From: Sorangium cellulosum
Lineage (GTDB): Bacteria > Myxococcota_A > Polyangia > Polyangiales > Polyangiaceae
Direction: 5' to 3'
DNA: 64,000 nt
NCBI GenBank assembly: GCA_020720045.1
Contig: DYPH01000002.1
Coordinates: forward strand, 35,191-99,190
Both the position numbers and the translations under genes were made by a program. Of the stretch, positions 3,293 through 59,430 are shown in pieces. Under the pieces are notes generated by a model. It worked only from the letters and a program-made list of their open reading frames with translations, ran no database searches and had not been told where the DNA came from. Numbering within the stretch: position 1 is the stretch's first letter; every line of letters begins with the position of its first letter.

Positions 3293-6226
3293 TTAGGGGG
3301 ACACGCCGACTTCGTCTTCCGGTCCTGCGTCCCAGGGAATCGGCGGAGGTGGCGCGAGTTCGACGGTTGGCGCGACGACCCACACGCGCCCCTTCCCGCC
3401 TGTAGTTACAAGGCCTTGTGCCCCCTCCGGAACCGTTCCGCGCCGCAGGGAATCGCCGACTCGGGCGTCGGACAGAGGGATCGGCGTTCCATGAACGCTG
3501 ACTGCGTCGGCGTCGGTCAGAACGGTGCGTCCGGCGACGGCGTTTTGCGGCGCTGCGAGAAGCCCCGCCGCGTCGGCCAGCGCGAGCGCTTGGAACAGTG
3601 GTTCGGGAAGCCCAGAAAAACGCAAGAGAATCGGCTGTGCATCCTTCGCACCACCGACGGCGAGAAGCGCCCGAAGGAGGGGCGCCCGGAGTTCCACGTG
3701 CCGCTCCTCGGCCGCCCGTTGGGCGAGCGGTTCACGGGCACGGGCGTCGCCAGCCGCTTCAAGCGCCTGAGCCACGTCGCCGCGAATGCGCACATCACCC
3801 AAGAGGGCAATGAGGGCGGGAACTGCTTGTTTCGATTTGAGTTTTGCGCTTGCGCGGACCGCGTCGCGAAGCCTCTTGAAGCTTAATCCGCGAACCGCCG
3901 GCTCGGCGAGCGCCGCCGCGAGCGTCTCCTCGCCCCGCTTGTCGCCCGTCTCGGCGAGTGCGAGCGCGGCGAGAAAGCGCGTGCGGGCATCCCCTTTCTG
4001 AAGCGCTTCGTCGAGGCGTGAAAGGTGCTCCCCTCCCGATCGAAGAGTTGCTGCCGCGGCCAGGTAGCTCACACCGAGATCTTCGTCGCGCTCGGCGGCC
4101 AGTCGGAGCGCGTCCTTGGCATCGGGAGCCGCCAAATCAAATAGACAATCGGCCGCGTGAAGACGAACGTCTCGCTTCGCATCCTCGAGCAGGGCGGCGG
4201 CATCGGTCGCCGCATCGGCATCGCCGGCCACGCAGCGTCGAAGCGCCTCTGGGAGCCCGGCGCCGCGCTCGCCTTCCAAGGCTCCATGCCCCTTCTGAAT
4301 GGCAGCAGATAGCGCTCGAAGCCCCCGCAACTCGGCGGCACGCGTTGCCTCTGCGACGCGGTTCTTTCGTTCCTCCGGGTCGTCGGAGAGGTCGTAGAGA
4401 GCGCAGGCTCCGCCTTCTTTTTTGCAAAGAAGTCGAAGATTTCCGCGCGCGACCATCGCGTCGTCTTCTGTCTCTGCGAAGGCCCAGGTCGGCTCCGCCG
4501 ACTTTCCGATGAGCAGGGGACCTAGGTCGCGCCCACGAAGGCGAGACGGTCGCGGGACTCCAAGCGCCGAAAGCACCGTAGGCAGGAGATCGATCGTTTG
4601 AACCGGTTCGGAAACAACGCGTGCGGCCACCTTCGGAGCGACGATGATCAACGGGACACGGACCTGCTCCTCGTAGACTGAAGTCCCGTGGTAGCGGCCG
4701 CCATGGTCGCCAAATTCCTCGCCATGATCCGCGGTGACAATCACGACCGCGTTGGGGCGAGCCGCACGCACTTTGGCGACGGCTGCACCCACCAAAGCAT
4801 CAGCTTCCGCGATCTCGCTGTCGTAGGCGTCGACGTCGGTCGGCCGGGCGTGGTCGCCGAAGCGGTGCTCCGCGTGCATTTCGTAGGGCTCGTGGGGCTC
4901 AAACGCATGGAGCCACAGAAACAACGGATGATCCTTTGGCGCCTTCGCCAAATAACTGTCGAGTTGTTTTTCGCGAAGTTCGCGCCCAGCAAACTCTACT
5001 TTTGCGTACTCGAAACCGAGTCGCCGCTCTTGAAAGTTGGTAAATTTGGGGCCATCGATGAAGAAGACCGCCGGCGGGTAGAAGGCCGCCGTCCGGTAGT
5101 CGTAGCGCCGCAACAAATCGGCAAATGTCTCGGAATCACTTCCTAAATCGAGGGCGAGGAGCGGGCGAAGATACTTGCCCGTCATCATCGAGGTCACCGA
5201 GTACGAGGTATGAGGGGTCGGGCAGTAGGCGCGCTCGAAGCGAACACCTTCACGCGCGAGGGCATCGATATTCGGCGAGGTCTTGCGCGCGTATCCGTAG
5301 GCGCCAAGATGATCGGCTCGTAGCGCGTCGATACTGATGAGGACGATATCGACGCCGGTAAAATCGAGGGACCGATTCGAAGAACCAACGGAAGCGGTGA
5401 CCGTTTCCGTGCCGTTCGCGACCTCTGCGTCGGCGGGGGCCATTCTGCCTGCGATGGCGACCCATTTCCCGCCAAGAGGGCTCTGCTCGGCAAAGACGAC
5501 GCGAACGTTGTCGTAACCGGCAAGCTTCTTTGCCAAAAACGGCGCGAGAATGCACGAAATCAGGCCGATCGATGCGATCACTCGCGCGACAAACGGCCGA
5601 CGTACTGCGGGAAAAAGTCCGGCCGCGAGGAGGAGTGCCCCCGCGCCGAGGAACCCGTGAAATGCCGGGTACAGACGTGGAAGGAGGAAGCGGTCGGCCA
5701 GTACGAGGGCGACGATCGCAGCGGTCAGTGCGGCAATCCGTTGGCGCGGTCGTCCTTGAAAGTAGCGGACGGTCGGGCCCGCAACGAGGAGTTTCATGCC
5801 GCCGGCGGCGAGCGCGAACAAACCCACGAAGGCGACACGCACGGGAACATTTTCAAAGTGCCGGCCGAAGGAGATGCCGTAGGCAAACACCCCCCCGAGA
5901 ATTCCCGCAACGAGGCCGACGCGACCTCGACCGCCGAGAAAATTCCTCGGTTGGGCCCCACGACCACCGCGAAGGGGGTCGAGAAGAAATGGGGCGCCGA
6001 TGCCGACCGCGCCGGCGACGATGAAGCCGACGGCCGCGCCGATCGAGGCGACGTAGCCGAGCGCAGCGCCGAGCTCAAAAGCGCCGACAAAAAAATCGCG
6101 CCGAAGGCAAAGCACGAGAAATACTTCGCAATACACAAGCGCAACAATCCCGAGCCACGCGCCGGTGACTCGGGAAAGTAGGTTGGGTTCGTCGCTGGCG
6201 CGGGGCGCGGACGACTCTGCGGTCAC
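3293..6226 (-). CDS. Membrane sulfatase-fold (LtaS/arylsulfatase clan) protein with HEAT-like repeats
   Basis: 977 aa. About six or seven hydrophobic segments occupy residues 22-235. The alkaline-phosphatase/sulfatase domain follows: DIVLISIDALRADHLGAYGY with metal-ligand Asp300, and TADHGEEFGDHGG with Asp500/His501. At the position where sulfatases carry the Cys or Ser that becomes formylglycine (C/S-x-P-S-R), this protein reads THR-SER-TYR-SER-VAL (Thr340), so it lacks the sulfatase signature and resembles the Thr-nucleophile transferases (LtaS, phosphoethanolamine transferases). The last 330 residues are Ala/Leu/Asp-rich helical repeats like HEAT repeats. The GTG start overlaps the greA stop (GTGA), implying coupled translation. 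Substrate unknown; a membrane-glycan modifying enzyme is the best guess. Confidence 0.75.
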   Translation of the reverse strand: MTAESSAPRASDEPNLLSRVTGAWLGIVALVYCEVFLVLCLRRDFFVGAFELGAALGYVASIGAAVGFIVAGAVGIGAPFLLDPLRGGRGAQPRNFLGGRGRVGLVAGILGGVFAYGISFGRHFENVPVRVAFVGLFALAAGGMKLLVAGPTVRYFQGRPRQRIAALTAAIVALVLADRFLLPRLYPAFHGFLGAGALLLAAGLFPAVRRPFVARVIASIGLISCILAPFLAKKLAGYDNVRVVFAEQSPLGGKWVAIAGRMAPADAEVANGTETVTASVGSSNRSLDFTGVDIVLISIDALRADHLGAYGYARKTSPNIDALAREGVRFERAYCPTPHTSYSVTSMMTGKYLRPLLALDLGSDSETFADLLRRYDYRTAAFYPPAVFFIDGPKFTNFQERRLGFEYAKVEFAGRELREKQLDSYLAKAPKDHPLFLWLHAFEPHEPYEMHAEHRFGDHARPTDVDAYDSEIAEADALVGAAVAKVRAARPNAVVIVTADHGEEFGDHGGRYHGTSVYEEQVRVPLIIVAPKVAARVVSEPVQTIDLLPTVLSALGVPRPSRLRGRDLGPLLIGKSAEPTWAFAETEDDAMVARGNLRLLCKKEGGACALYDLSDDPEERKNRVAEATRAAELRGLRALSAAIQKGHGALEGERGAGLPEALRRCVAGDADAATDAAALLEDAKRDVRLHAADCLFDLAAPDAKDALRLAAERDEDLGVSYLAAAATLRSGGEHLSRLDEALQKGDARTRFLAALALAETGDKRGEETLAAALAEPAVRGLSFKRLRDAVRASAKLKSKQAVPALIALLGDVRIRGDVAQALEAAGDARAREPLAQRAAEERHVELRAPLLRALLAVGGAKDAQPILLRFSGLPEPLFQALALADAAGLLAAPQNAVAGRTVLTDADAVSVHGTPIPLSDARVGDSLRRGTVPEGAQGLVTTGGKGRVWVVAPTVELAPPPPIPWDAGPEDEVGVSP

Positions 6227-6693
6227 TTGAATTCGATGGCAAGAATCTCGAAGATGCGCTCACCACCGGGGGTGCGTGTCTTCACTTCGTCGCCGACTTC
6301 TTTTCCGATGAGCGAGCGTGCCATCGGGCTCGTCACGCTGATAAATCCGCGTGCGACGTCGGTTTCGTCGGCGCCGACGAGCTTGTAAATGACGGTCTTT
6401 TCGTGTTCGTCCTGAAGCGTGACCGTCGCCCCAAAAGCGACTTTGTCGCCGGCGAGCGTCTTCGGATCAATGACTTCCGCGCGCGCGAGCTTGTCCTCGA
6501 TGACGCGCATCATCTCCTCGATCTGCCCCTGTCGCTCTTTTGCCGCGTGATATTCGGCATTCTCCTTGAGATCGCCTAGCTCGCGGGCGTGTGCAATTTG
6601 CTCGACGATGCGGGGACGCTCAGCGCGATATTTCGCCAGCTCCTCCTTCAACCGCGTGAGACCTTCCGGGGTGATCGGATTCTTCTCGACCAT
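6223..6693 (-). CDS. greA: Transcription elongation factor GreA
   Basis: 156 aa, the normal GreA length. The N-terminal coiled coil carries the hallmark ELGDLKENAEYHAAKERQ (about 39-56), and the C-terminal FKBP-like domain ends PGGERIFEILAIEF. GreA inserts its coiled coil into the secondary channel of RNA polymerase and stimulates cleavage of backtracked transcripts. The stop codon is shared with the GTG start of the downstream sulfatase-fold gene in a GTGA overlap, so the two are co-transcribed. The start ATG at 6693 faces the plus-strand ORF at 6787 across a 93-bp divergent gap. Confidence 0.97.
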   Translation of the reverse strand: MVEKNPITPEGLTRLKEELAKYRAERPRIVEQIAHARELGDLKENAEYHAAKERQGQIEEMMRVIEDKLARAEVIDPKTLAGDKVAFGATVTLQDEHEKTVIYKLVGADETDVARGFISVTSPMARSLIGKEVGDEVKTRTPGGERIFEILAIEFK

Positions 6694-6786
6694 AGACCGC
6701 GGCTATAGCAAACCCGCGCCAGCAACCGCATGAATTCGCGACGGTTGCTGCCCGGCCCCGCGCGCGTCGCAAAAGGTCTTGTTTTT

Positions 6787-7233
6787 ATGAAGATTATTGC
6801 AACTTTCCCCGCTTCGGGCTTCCGGCTTTCCTTGGAGCGCAGCCTCACGAGCGACGCGTTTGTCTCCGCCCGGCGAGACGCCGGACCGGAGAACGCGTCC
6901 GTCCGCGAAGCGGGAGACGGCGCGGAGTTCTTGCCAAACGTTTCCGTCCGCGAAGCGGGAGACGGCGCGGAGTTCTTGCCAAACGCGTCCGTCCGCGAAG
7001 CGGGAGACGGCGCGGAGCTGGCCGCATATTCCTACCGGGGAGATCTCCACTTCGCCGATCGCGTGGAGCCTGCAGCCTGCACCGTCTTTGCCGACGGAAG
7101 CGTTCGCGTCGACGTGGCGCCTTCAGAACTTCATGAAAAAGTTCGGCTACTCGTCCGCGCTGCCATCAAAGGGCCGCTCCGGGAAGGGCTCGCACCCCCT
7201 CGTCGCATTCAACGTTGGCGCGATGGCGCGTAA
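6787..7233 (+). CDS. Small protein of unknown function carrying in-frame A/B repeats
   Basis: 148 aa from the ATG at 6787 (AAAGG about 9 bases upstream). Residues 1-24 (MKIIATFPASGFRLSLERSL...) precede a 50-odd-residue stretch encoded entirely by palindromic module A and two and a half 45-bp B units, read as GDGAEFLPN / ASVREA repeats. Residues from about 78 on (YRGDLHFADRVEP, CTVFADGSVRVDVAPSEL, HEKVRLLVRAAIKGPL, RRIQRW) look like genuine conserved protein. The stop is 6 bases before the bamD start, so it is probably in the bamD operon. The repeats keep the frame open, as Rickettsia palindromic elements do. Alternative: the true protein starts after the repeats, for example at a GTG near 7063. 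I do not recognise the family. Confidence 0.55.
   Translation: MKIIATFPASGFRLSLERSLTSDAFVSARRDAGPENASVREAGDGAEFLPNVSVREAGDGAEFLPNASVREAGDGAELAAYSYRGDLHFADRVEPAACTVFADGSVRVDVAPSELHEKVRLLVRAAIKGPLREGLAPPRRIQRWRDGA
6854..7017 (+). repeat. Module A plus 2.7 module-B units (repeat locus 2)
   Basis: Module A spans 6854-6898: ACGCGT, TTG bulge, TCTCCG, CC, CCGGCG-AGA-CGCCGG, AC, CGGAGA, ACGCGT, a nested hairpin nearly palindromic along its length. Relative to the standard CCGGC-GA-GCCGG core it has a 3-bp expansion that extends the stem by one pair. Three B units follow: 6895-6939 (45 bp), 6940-6984 (45 bp, junction mutated to GTTTCC) and 6985-7017 (truncated at 33 bp). Each B unit holds the hairpin CCGT-CCGC-GAA-GCGG-GAG-ACGG. 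All lengths are multiples of three and the ORF stays open throughout. Confidence 0.9.
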
Positions 7234-7239
7234 CTCGGT

Positions 7240-8154
7240 ATGACCGCGCCGATGCGTCGCCCCTCCCCTGCCCTACGCGTGTTCGCGTTTGCCTTGATCG
7301 GCGCGTTTGCAACCGTCGCCTGCGAGCCGCCGCCGGCGAAAACGGCCACGAACTATACGGATGACGCAAAGAAAGCCTACGACGAAGGCGTCGAAAAGCT
7401 TGATTCGCATGACTACTTGGAAGCCCAACTTCTTCTGCGAGAAGTTGCCCGGAAATTTCCCTACACGAAGTGGGGGCGCCTCGCCGAACTGCGAAGCGCA
7501 GACGCCGACTTTGCCCAAGAGAAATACACGGAAGCGACCCGCGGCTATCGCAAATTTATTCACGATCACCGCTCCGACGATGACGAGATCGCCTACGCGC
7601 GAGCGAAGATTGCGGAAGCCCAGTACCGGGAAATTGGCGACTCCTTCCTCGCGCCGACGACGGATGAGCGCGACCAGTCGGCGATTCAGGATGCCTACAA
7701 GGAGTTGAGATCCTACCTGGCCGACTATCCGGCGGCGAAGGAGTCAAAGCATGTCCAGGAACTCCTGGCGGACGTCCTCAATCGACTCGTTCGCCATGAG
7801 CTATCCGTCGCGCGATTCTACTTCAGTCGCGGAAACTACGAAGCAGCCGTCGGTCGAATCCAGTACGCCCTTCGTAATTTTTCTCGGACGCGCGTCGAGG
7901 CGAAGAAGGGGCCGAAGGGGGAAGGCATCGAGGTTGATTCCGGTCGTGAGCCGGAAGCCCTCTTCCTCCTGGCCGAAACGTACATGAAAATGCAGCGTTG
8001 GGAGGATGCGACCGGCGCCCTGCAGATTCTCGTCGCCCAGTATCCGCTCTCTGAGCTTCGCACGCAGGCGAAGAGCTACCTCGTCTTCTTGGCGACGAAG
8101 AACCCCCAAAAAACAGCGACTTCCGCGTCTGTCCCTGTTTCGAAGGGCCCGTAG
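7240..8154 (+). CDS. bamD: BamD-like outer-membrane assembly lipoprotein
   Basis: 304 aa. The N-terminal signal peptide ends at a lipobox-like ATVA-C (Cys28, slightly off consensus at -3). The mature part begins with the BamD pattern ARKAYDEG/LDSHDYLEAQLLLREVARKFPYTKWG, followed by TPR units (YTEATRGYRKFIHDH, YKELRSYLADYPAAKESKHV, YFSRGNYEAAVGRIQYAL, RWEDATGALQILVAQYPLSE). BamD is the essential TPR lipoprotein of the BAM complex that docks BamA. It follows the repeat-bearing ORF by 6 bp and is followed by the response regulator after a single base. A putative BamB is encoded 5.5 kb away on the other strand. Confidence 0.85.
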   Translation: MTAPMRRPSPALRVFAFALIGAFATVACEPPPAKTATNYTDDAKKAYDEGVEKLDSHDYLEAQLLLREVARKFPYTKWGRLAELRSADADFAQEKYTEATRGYRKFIHDHRSDDDEIAYARAKIAEAQYREIGDSFLAPTTDERDQSAIQDAYKELRSYLADYPAAKESKHVQELLADVLNRLVRHELSVARFYFSRGNYEAAVGRIQYALRNFSRTRVEAKKGPKGEGIEVDSGREPEALFLLAETYMKMQRWEDATGALQILVAQYPLSELRTQAKSYLVFLATKNPQKTATSASVPVSKGP

Positions 8155-43251: not shown

Positions 43252-43470
43252 GCGGTTGTCTCCGCCCGGCGCGACGGATCGGAGAGCGCGTTTGGCAAGA
43301 ACTCCGCGCCGTCCCCCGCTTCGCGGACGGACGCGTTTGGCAAGAACTCCGCGCCGTCCCCGCTTCGCGGACGGACGCGTTTGGCAAGAACTCCGCGCCG
43401 TCCCCCGCTTCGCGGACGGACGCGTTTGGCAAGAACTCCGCGCCGTCCCCCGCTTCGCGGACGGCGCGTC
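43252..43470 (-). repeat. Module A plus four reversed module-B units (repeat locus 4)
   Basis: Module A lies at 43252-43291 with TCTCCG (43261-43266) and CGGAGA (43282-43287); its inner core is degenerate. Four B units follow in reverse complement: 43292-43336 (45 bp), 43337-43380 (44 bp, one C lost from a C5 run), 43381-43425 (45 bp) and 43426-43470 (last few bases diverged). The 44-bp unit breaks the mod-3 rhythm, consistent with a non-coding location. On the minus strand the B units come directly after the stop codon of the Cys-rich gene. Confidence 0.92.
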
Positions 43471-59328: not shown

Positions 59329-59430
59329 CGCCACCGCGTCCGTCCGCAAAGCGGGAGACGGCGCGGAGTTCGATGCCACCGCGTCCGTCCGCAAAGCGGG
59401 AGACGGCGCGGAGTTCGATGCCACCGCGTC
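59329..59430 (+). repeat. Two module-B units (repeat locus 5)
   Basis: Two B units of 45 bp at 59336-59380 and 59381-59425, preceded by a partial end (GCCACC) and followed by a 5-base start of a third. The hairpin loop reads AAA instead of GAA (CCGC-AAA-GCGG) while the stem is unchanged, and the inter-hairpin part is GTTCGATGCCACC instead of GTTCTTGCCAAAC. No module A. The array lies between the aceA stop and its terminator, in the sense orientation. Confidence 0.92.

Follow-up and report, generated by a model that had tools for sequence, protein, structure and literature searches.

A probable in-frame insertion of a REP-like repeat in a small conserved gene upstream of bamD in a Myxococcales genome

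The repeat block inside a small gene directly upstream of bamD very probably arose when a REP-like mobile mini-element, specific to the genus, inserted there in frame; a RAYT (REP-associated tyrosine transposase, HUH type) is its likely mobiliser. The window, by which we mean the whole stretch of 64,000 nucleotides analysed here (contig C302:35191-99190), belongs to a Myxococcales genome of 6.34 Mb in 357 contigs (G000), which we compared with relatives from the same family and, in particular, with its genus-mate and sister G001.

The small gene upstream of bamD and its repeat block

The host gene (6787..7233, + strand) lies between greA (6223..6693, - strand; PF03449 and PF01272 ~1e-25), its divergent neighbour, and bamD (7240..8154, + strand; YfiO lipoprotein, PF13525 5e-26), which has orthologues in relatives and serves as synteny anchor. 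An ATG at 6730 is also possible as a mechanical start of the ORF; homologues favour the ATG at 6787. The earlier note had read this ORF as a plausible gene that stays open through the entire repeat block. The ORF reading confirms that it is open throughout, and the same protein is encoded in 11 relatives, in several of them beside bamD. Judged by the conservation of its N- and C-terminal parts, the ORF encodes a real conserved protein, 148 residues long here versus about 93-109 in most relatives. Profile searches gave no significant Pfam or NCBIfam match, and Foldseek gave no PDB match for its fold (best E 0.69).

The block opens with an A unit of 39 bp (6854..6892, +; ACGCGTTTGTCTCCGCCCGGCGAGACGCCGGACCGGAGA), which is hairpin-forming and encodes about AFVSARRDAGPEN. 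Three B units follow: the first of 45 bp (6893..6937, +), encoding about ASVREAGDGAEFLPN; the second also of 45 bp, with an ACGTTT start (6938..6982, +), encoding about VSVREAGDGAEFLPN; and the third (6983..7017, +), cut off after GGCGCGGAG (35 bp). While the A unit and the first B unit are identified by their copy numbers and spacing in the genome, detailed below, the last two were read from the sequence. The start-to-start spacings of 45 and 45 bp claimed earlier for the B units are correct.

Using the 67 residues after the repeat as a query, we found homologues in relatives, among them G011 (E 7e-12), G043 (9e-9), G040 (1e-8) and G020 (4e-8). In G011 and G020 the homologue is directly upstream of bamD, while in G006 and, more weakly, in G004 it follows bamD on the same strand at a distance of a few hundred bases. 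Residues P8, G11, R13, G85, R124, R143, W144 and R145 are invariant in a 12-row alignment. A lack of counterparts for the N-terminal ~24 codons had been set beforehand as a refuting outcome. Counterparts were found, MKIIATFPASGFRLSLER aligning with MAIVGHHPETGVRLVLER, MGIIGQKPETGIRIDVER and others, and homologues do not start only after position 7017, since the relatives carry the N-terminal strand as well as the C-terminal core. From LER to the conserved Y83, there are 64 residues in the window protein versus about 8-11 in most relatives. The 54-56 extra residues, close to the addition of about 50 that had been proposed, correspond to 162-168 bp and fit 39+45+45 plus 33 to 39 bp. As for the in-frame gap expected exactly at 6854-7017, the alignment gap does fall at the repeat, but the exact boundaries do not hold: that interval is 164 bp long, not a multiple of three, and since the alignment implies 162-168 bp, the true boundaries must be off by at least one base.

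When AlphaFold2 was run on the homologue alignment, the strand at residues 12-18 and residues 81-145 were modelled with pLDDT mostly above 90, and the repeat segment with pLDDT mostly below 58. The insert is predicted to form a disordered, floppy loop between strands 1 and 2. In the G020 homologue (L065:1498-1893, - strand), the same loop carries an unrelated extension of ~35 residues. We considered whether this could be a second mobile repeat and ruled it out because it is single-copy in that genome, which makes the site simply a length-tolerant loop. The G001 assembly has no bamD orthologue and thus offers no sister empty site for the focal insertion.

The repeat family and its copies in other genes

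The repeat is a genus-specific mobile family. Allowing up to 3 mismatches, we found 248 copies of the B core and 82 of the A core in G000, as opposed to 0 matches for reversed-pattern controls at the same tolerance, so that the repeat is not a product of chance. In a scan of 108 family genomes, the family was restricted to G000 and G001, the latter with 96 B copies, while five other genomes had one 3-mismatch match each; both assemblies are fragmented, and tandem copy numbers may be collapsed in them. An exact B-core scan of GTDB genomes returned solely the sister MAG "Myxococcales bacterium bin76, WN_Myxococcales_3", and viral contigs contained no exact match to the repeat.

We sampled about 1.57 Mb of G000 and 0.80 Mb of G001. 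In the G000 sample, 273 units are grouped in 157 arrays, in which the usual step between neighbours is 39 bp for A-A (21 of 22 pairs) and 45 bp for B-B (71 of 74), every like-type pair being arranged head-to-tail. Most copies are bounded by ACGCG. As DNA, A forms a strong hairpin (z -5.6) and B a weak one (z -0.6/-1.6). Neither consensus unit contains a stop codon in any of the six frames and, with lengths of 39 and 45 bp, both keep any host frame when inserted as whole units.

The window holds further copies. One is an intergenic B array (43287..43464, -) of the same family, in which the 44-bp unit reported near 43337 is indeed present, with spacings of 44, 45 and 45 bp; another is a pair of B units (59335..59430, +) that sequence and gene-position analysis places just downstream of a gene end (59324). 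At positions 1-186, there is a tandem array of a 36-bp A variant (CTCCGCCCGGCGAGCCGGATCGGCGAGTGTTGTTGT) with a shortened inner stem, its period again a multiple of three. Elsewhere in the G000 stretches, two more dispersed palindromic families have a similar architecture (CGCGTCCGCCCGGAACCGCC..GGCGGTGAGGAAACGGCGCG and GGGGCCCGTCCGTTCGC..GAGAGACGGCGGGCCC), and some of their copies, too, distinguish the sister genomes within genes (e.g., L177:2688, 111 bp in G001). A CRISPR-like repeat (CGGTTCACCCCCGCGTGCGCGGGGACAG) that by eye resembles type I-E is present in the G000 stretches in about 188 copies. A CRISPR array was ruled out as an identity for the A/B block, because A and B adjoin without unique spacers and the CRISPR-like repeat of this genome differs in sequence.

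We located 146 sampled arrays relative to genes called by a dicodon model (coding fraction 0.90). Sixty-four (about 44%) are inside called genes, 30 at gene ends and 52 intergenic, and at least 43 of the 146 are in frame within genes, with coding-like flanks on both sides. Arrays are thus strongly depleted in genes relative to a genome that is about 90% coding, yet far from excluded. Within arrays, the spacing is a multiple of three in 39 of 39 genic cases and 54 of 57 others, counts too small to compare. Genic arrays occur in both orientations and in several of the possible frames, though unevenly: among 18 genic B arrays, eight read in frame ASVREAGDGAEF, and the 25 genic A arrays all fall in four frames.

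Inserts in known proteins provide independent proof of in-frame genic insertion. In DNA polymerase I, residues 641-670 (30 = 2 x 15) are extra between the adjacent Taq residues 530 and 531, which on sequence comparison reads plainly as a gain. Three units separate the GATase_2 and central domains of GltB, KdpD carries a B-B-A array just after its sensor domain, and a type I phosphomannose isomerase (PMI) has B-A-B after the catalytic domain.

Sister-genome differences, a candidate transposase and rival explanations

G001 and G000 are mostly 91-96% identical. Across 205 kb of aligned sequence, all 14 indels that span 15 bp or more and are rich in repeat 13-mers have a length divisible by three; seven are genic and seven intergenic. 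Since genic and intergenic indels behave alike, the cause is the unit length itself and not only selection in genes. Among the clean cases, an A unit (+39 bp) makes the difference at L186:1667, where the flanks are identical; at L213:9305 it is three B units (+135 bp) and at L197:17486 a single B (+45 bp). Inside genes, there are an extra A (+39 bp) at L179:17094 and two extra B units (+90 bp) at L203:13410. One exception by length, +49 bp (A) at L220:11127, is just outside a gene start. Twenty-four repeat loci could be aligned, two of them containing Ns, and six of the other 22 have the same length in both species, gain and loss being unpolarised between two genomes alone. Sites show one (A)CGCG or CTT motif when empty and two when filled, which would fit either a MITE-like target-site duplication or insertion beside a preferred motif; a comparison of left and right flanks did not separate duplication from truncated neighbouring units.

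As for the enzyme, a RAYT-like HUH transposase has about 12 matches in G000 and about 14 in G001, 64-100% identical. It matches NF047646 with E 2e-10 at 36-41 bits, below the cut-off of 80, and Y1_Tnp weakly. Seven of 11 RAYT copies have an A-like palindrome within 60 bp 3' of the stop, a feature of 7% of ordinary gene ends (Fisher p 3e-6). Since the copies are paralogues, and three of them have one A variant in common, the independent count is lower than 7/11. The remaining four of the 11 have no A on the 3' side, while the L324 copy carries an A/B hybrid, which is the sole RAYT association of B. Several RAYT copies (L182, L163, L286, L299, L323 and L324) have conserved outer ends, 5' CCCCCCTGGCCCAGGCCAGGCAAATTCG..GGGGCCACCCCC and 3' GAATTGAATAGCGCGGGACAGGCTCTCGAAAGGGGGTCTGTTTCCGCGCGTC, and because these are common to the copies, it seems that the RAYT gene is itself mobile as one piece. 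Our inference is that A is mobilised by RAYT, which would also act on B in trans.

In the scenario that we favour, a REP-like mini-element entered the small gene upstream of bamD at the place that encodes the loop joining strands 1 and 2. Single or tandem whole units preserve the host frame, as they consist of whole codons and are stop-free six ways. Copies would spread by insertion at sites with (A)CGCG or similar, the multicopy RAYT of the genus being the likely mobilising enzyme, and arrays would then lengthen or shorten head to tail by whole units. Inserts are probably tolerated by falling in loops and linkers, and many genic insertions were presumably removed by selection.

Two rival explanations do without a mobile element in the coding sequence. 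It could be argued that the repeat is untranslated, the true gene beginning downstream of 7017 and the open frame being accidental. An accidental open frame comes easily with units that are stop-free in six frames, a property found in 27-31% of same-length random G000 stretches. By itself, then, the openness of the frame across the repeat says little for coding, and it is the homologues that carry the case: they possess the N-terminal strand that in the window precedes the repeat, with P8, G11 and R13 invariant in the alignment, and the coding score is already positive for the 111 bp ahead of the repeat (L 7.3). This leaves the untranslated reading very improbable. The other possibility, a local tandem duplication by replication slippage within the gene, would account for the strict 45-bp head-to-tail spacing and for copy numbers that differ between the sister genomes. 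However, hundreds of unrelated loci carry the same units, in either orientation, and single units occupy clean empty sites such as L186:1667; slippage explains growth only after the arrival of the first unit, and we regard it as highly unlikely as the origin of the block.

Two others accept the in-frame repeat and differ on its role or its route. The non-uniform use of frames described above gives some support to the idea that selection maintains the peptide encoded by the repeat (SVREAGDGAEFLPN) as a functional module, as opposed to tolerated baggage, but several frames and both orientations are in use, AlphaFold2 predicts the peptide to be disordered and the hosts (Pol I, GltB and KdpD) are unrelated, all of which makes it improbable. 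A somewhat unlikely reading is that the repeat spread in frame without RAYT, either by ACGCG-microhomology gap repair or gene conversion, or through an unrelated transposase. Insertions adjoin 3-5 bp that also occur at the element end ((A)CGCG, CTT), B folds poorly into a hairpin and is nearly without a RAYT partner, and A may sit behind RAYT genes simply by co-inheritance. The 3' association of A-like palindromes with seven of 11 RAYT copies and the presence of about 12-14 such copies in the two repeat-carrying genomes argue against it. We retain insertion of a RAYT-linked, REP-like mini-element as the preferred explanation. A bolder version, which we put forward tentatively and consider rather doubtful, is that this is a RAYT-linked REP lineage specialised for genes, in which selection fixed unit lengths at multiples of three and kept the units stop-free six ways, making it a protein-building element still active between sister species. 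If true, such a gene-specialised lineage would make insertion and later copy-number change frame-neutral anywhere.

Relation to known palindromic elements

Rickettsia palindromic elements (RPE) are short palindromic repeats found in frame in many protein genes and also between genes. The analogy with them drawn in the earlier note holds in the sense of "works like", as other housekeeping genes of G000 carry the repeat in frame. Like RPE, the repeat is in frame in the focal gene, Pol I, GltB, KdpD and PMI, where host function is plausibly kept. Unlike RPE, it forms GC-rich head-to-tail arrays of 39/45-bp units, in a Myxococcales genus and with a linked RAYT; the two are likened by behaviour, not descent. 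The repeat thus appears RPE-like in behaviour, while its link to RAYT suggests an element of REP type. To our knowledge, most palindromic elements that lie in reading frames come from Rickettsia and a scatter of REP-rich genomes, and many lack an apparent mobilising enzyme or an empty site of recent date. In the present case, sisters that are 92-95% identical and differ by whole 39-/45-bp units, together with a multicopy RAYT, make REP-like movement directly testable. Since the hosts include core enzymes with solved homologues, it also becomes testable whether protein-coding palindromes change their hosts or merely burden them.

Intragenic REPs of the GTAG and CGTC families are high-copy palindromes of 20-40 bp, some of which lie in genes and encode 20-82 amino acids, and DNA polymerase I is among the proteins that carry them (Di Nocera et al. 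2013, PMC3733652). According to the same work, RPE-4 and RPE-6 are CGTC-type REPs, an association with transposases (RAYT, REPtrons) is described for GTAG REPs only, and REPs are mostly extragenic, with head-to-tail dimers absent or under-represented (PMC3733652). The repeat family described here resembles intragenic REPs in that it also inserts in frame in genes and is RAYT-linked, whereas its strictly head-to-tail arrangement, its fixed spacing of 39/45 bp and its large genic share (about 44% of sampled arrays) set it apart. A is a high-copy palindrome with a strong hairpin, as expected of a REP, while B has the copy number and a weak hairpin. There is no GTAG tag in the A or B consensus, and a CGTC near the B start (ACGCGTCCGTCC) is without the stem and CCA tail of the CGTC families (PMC3733652). 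Our literature search on REPs in Myxococcota found nothing relevant.

The likeness to a REPtron is that a RAYT-like HUH transposase has an A-like palindrome immediately 3' of the stop in most copies. The differences are that this RAYT is multicopy with its own conserved outer ends, that A is located between the ORF and the conserved 3' end and that some copies have no A.
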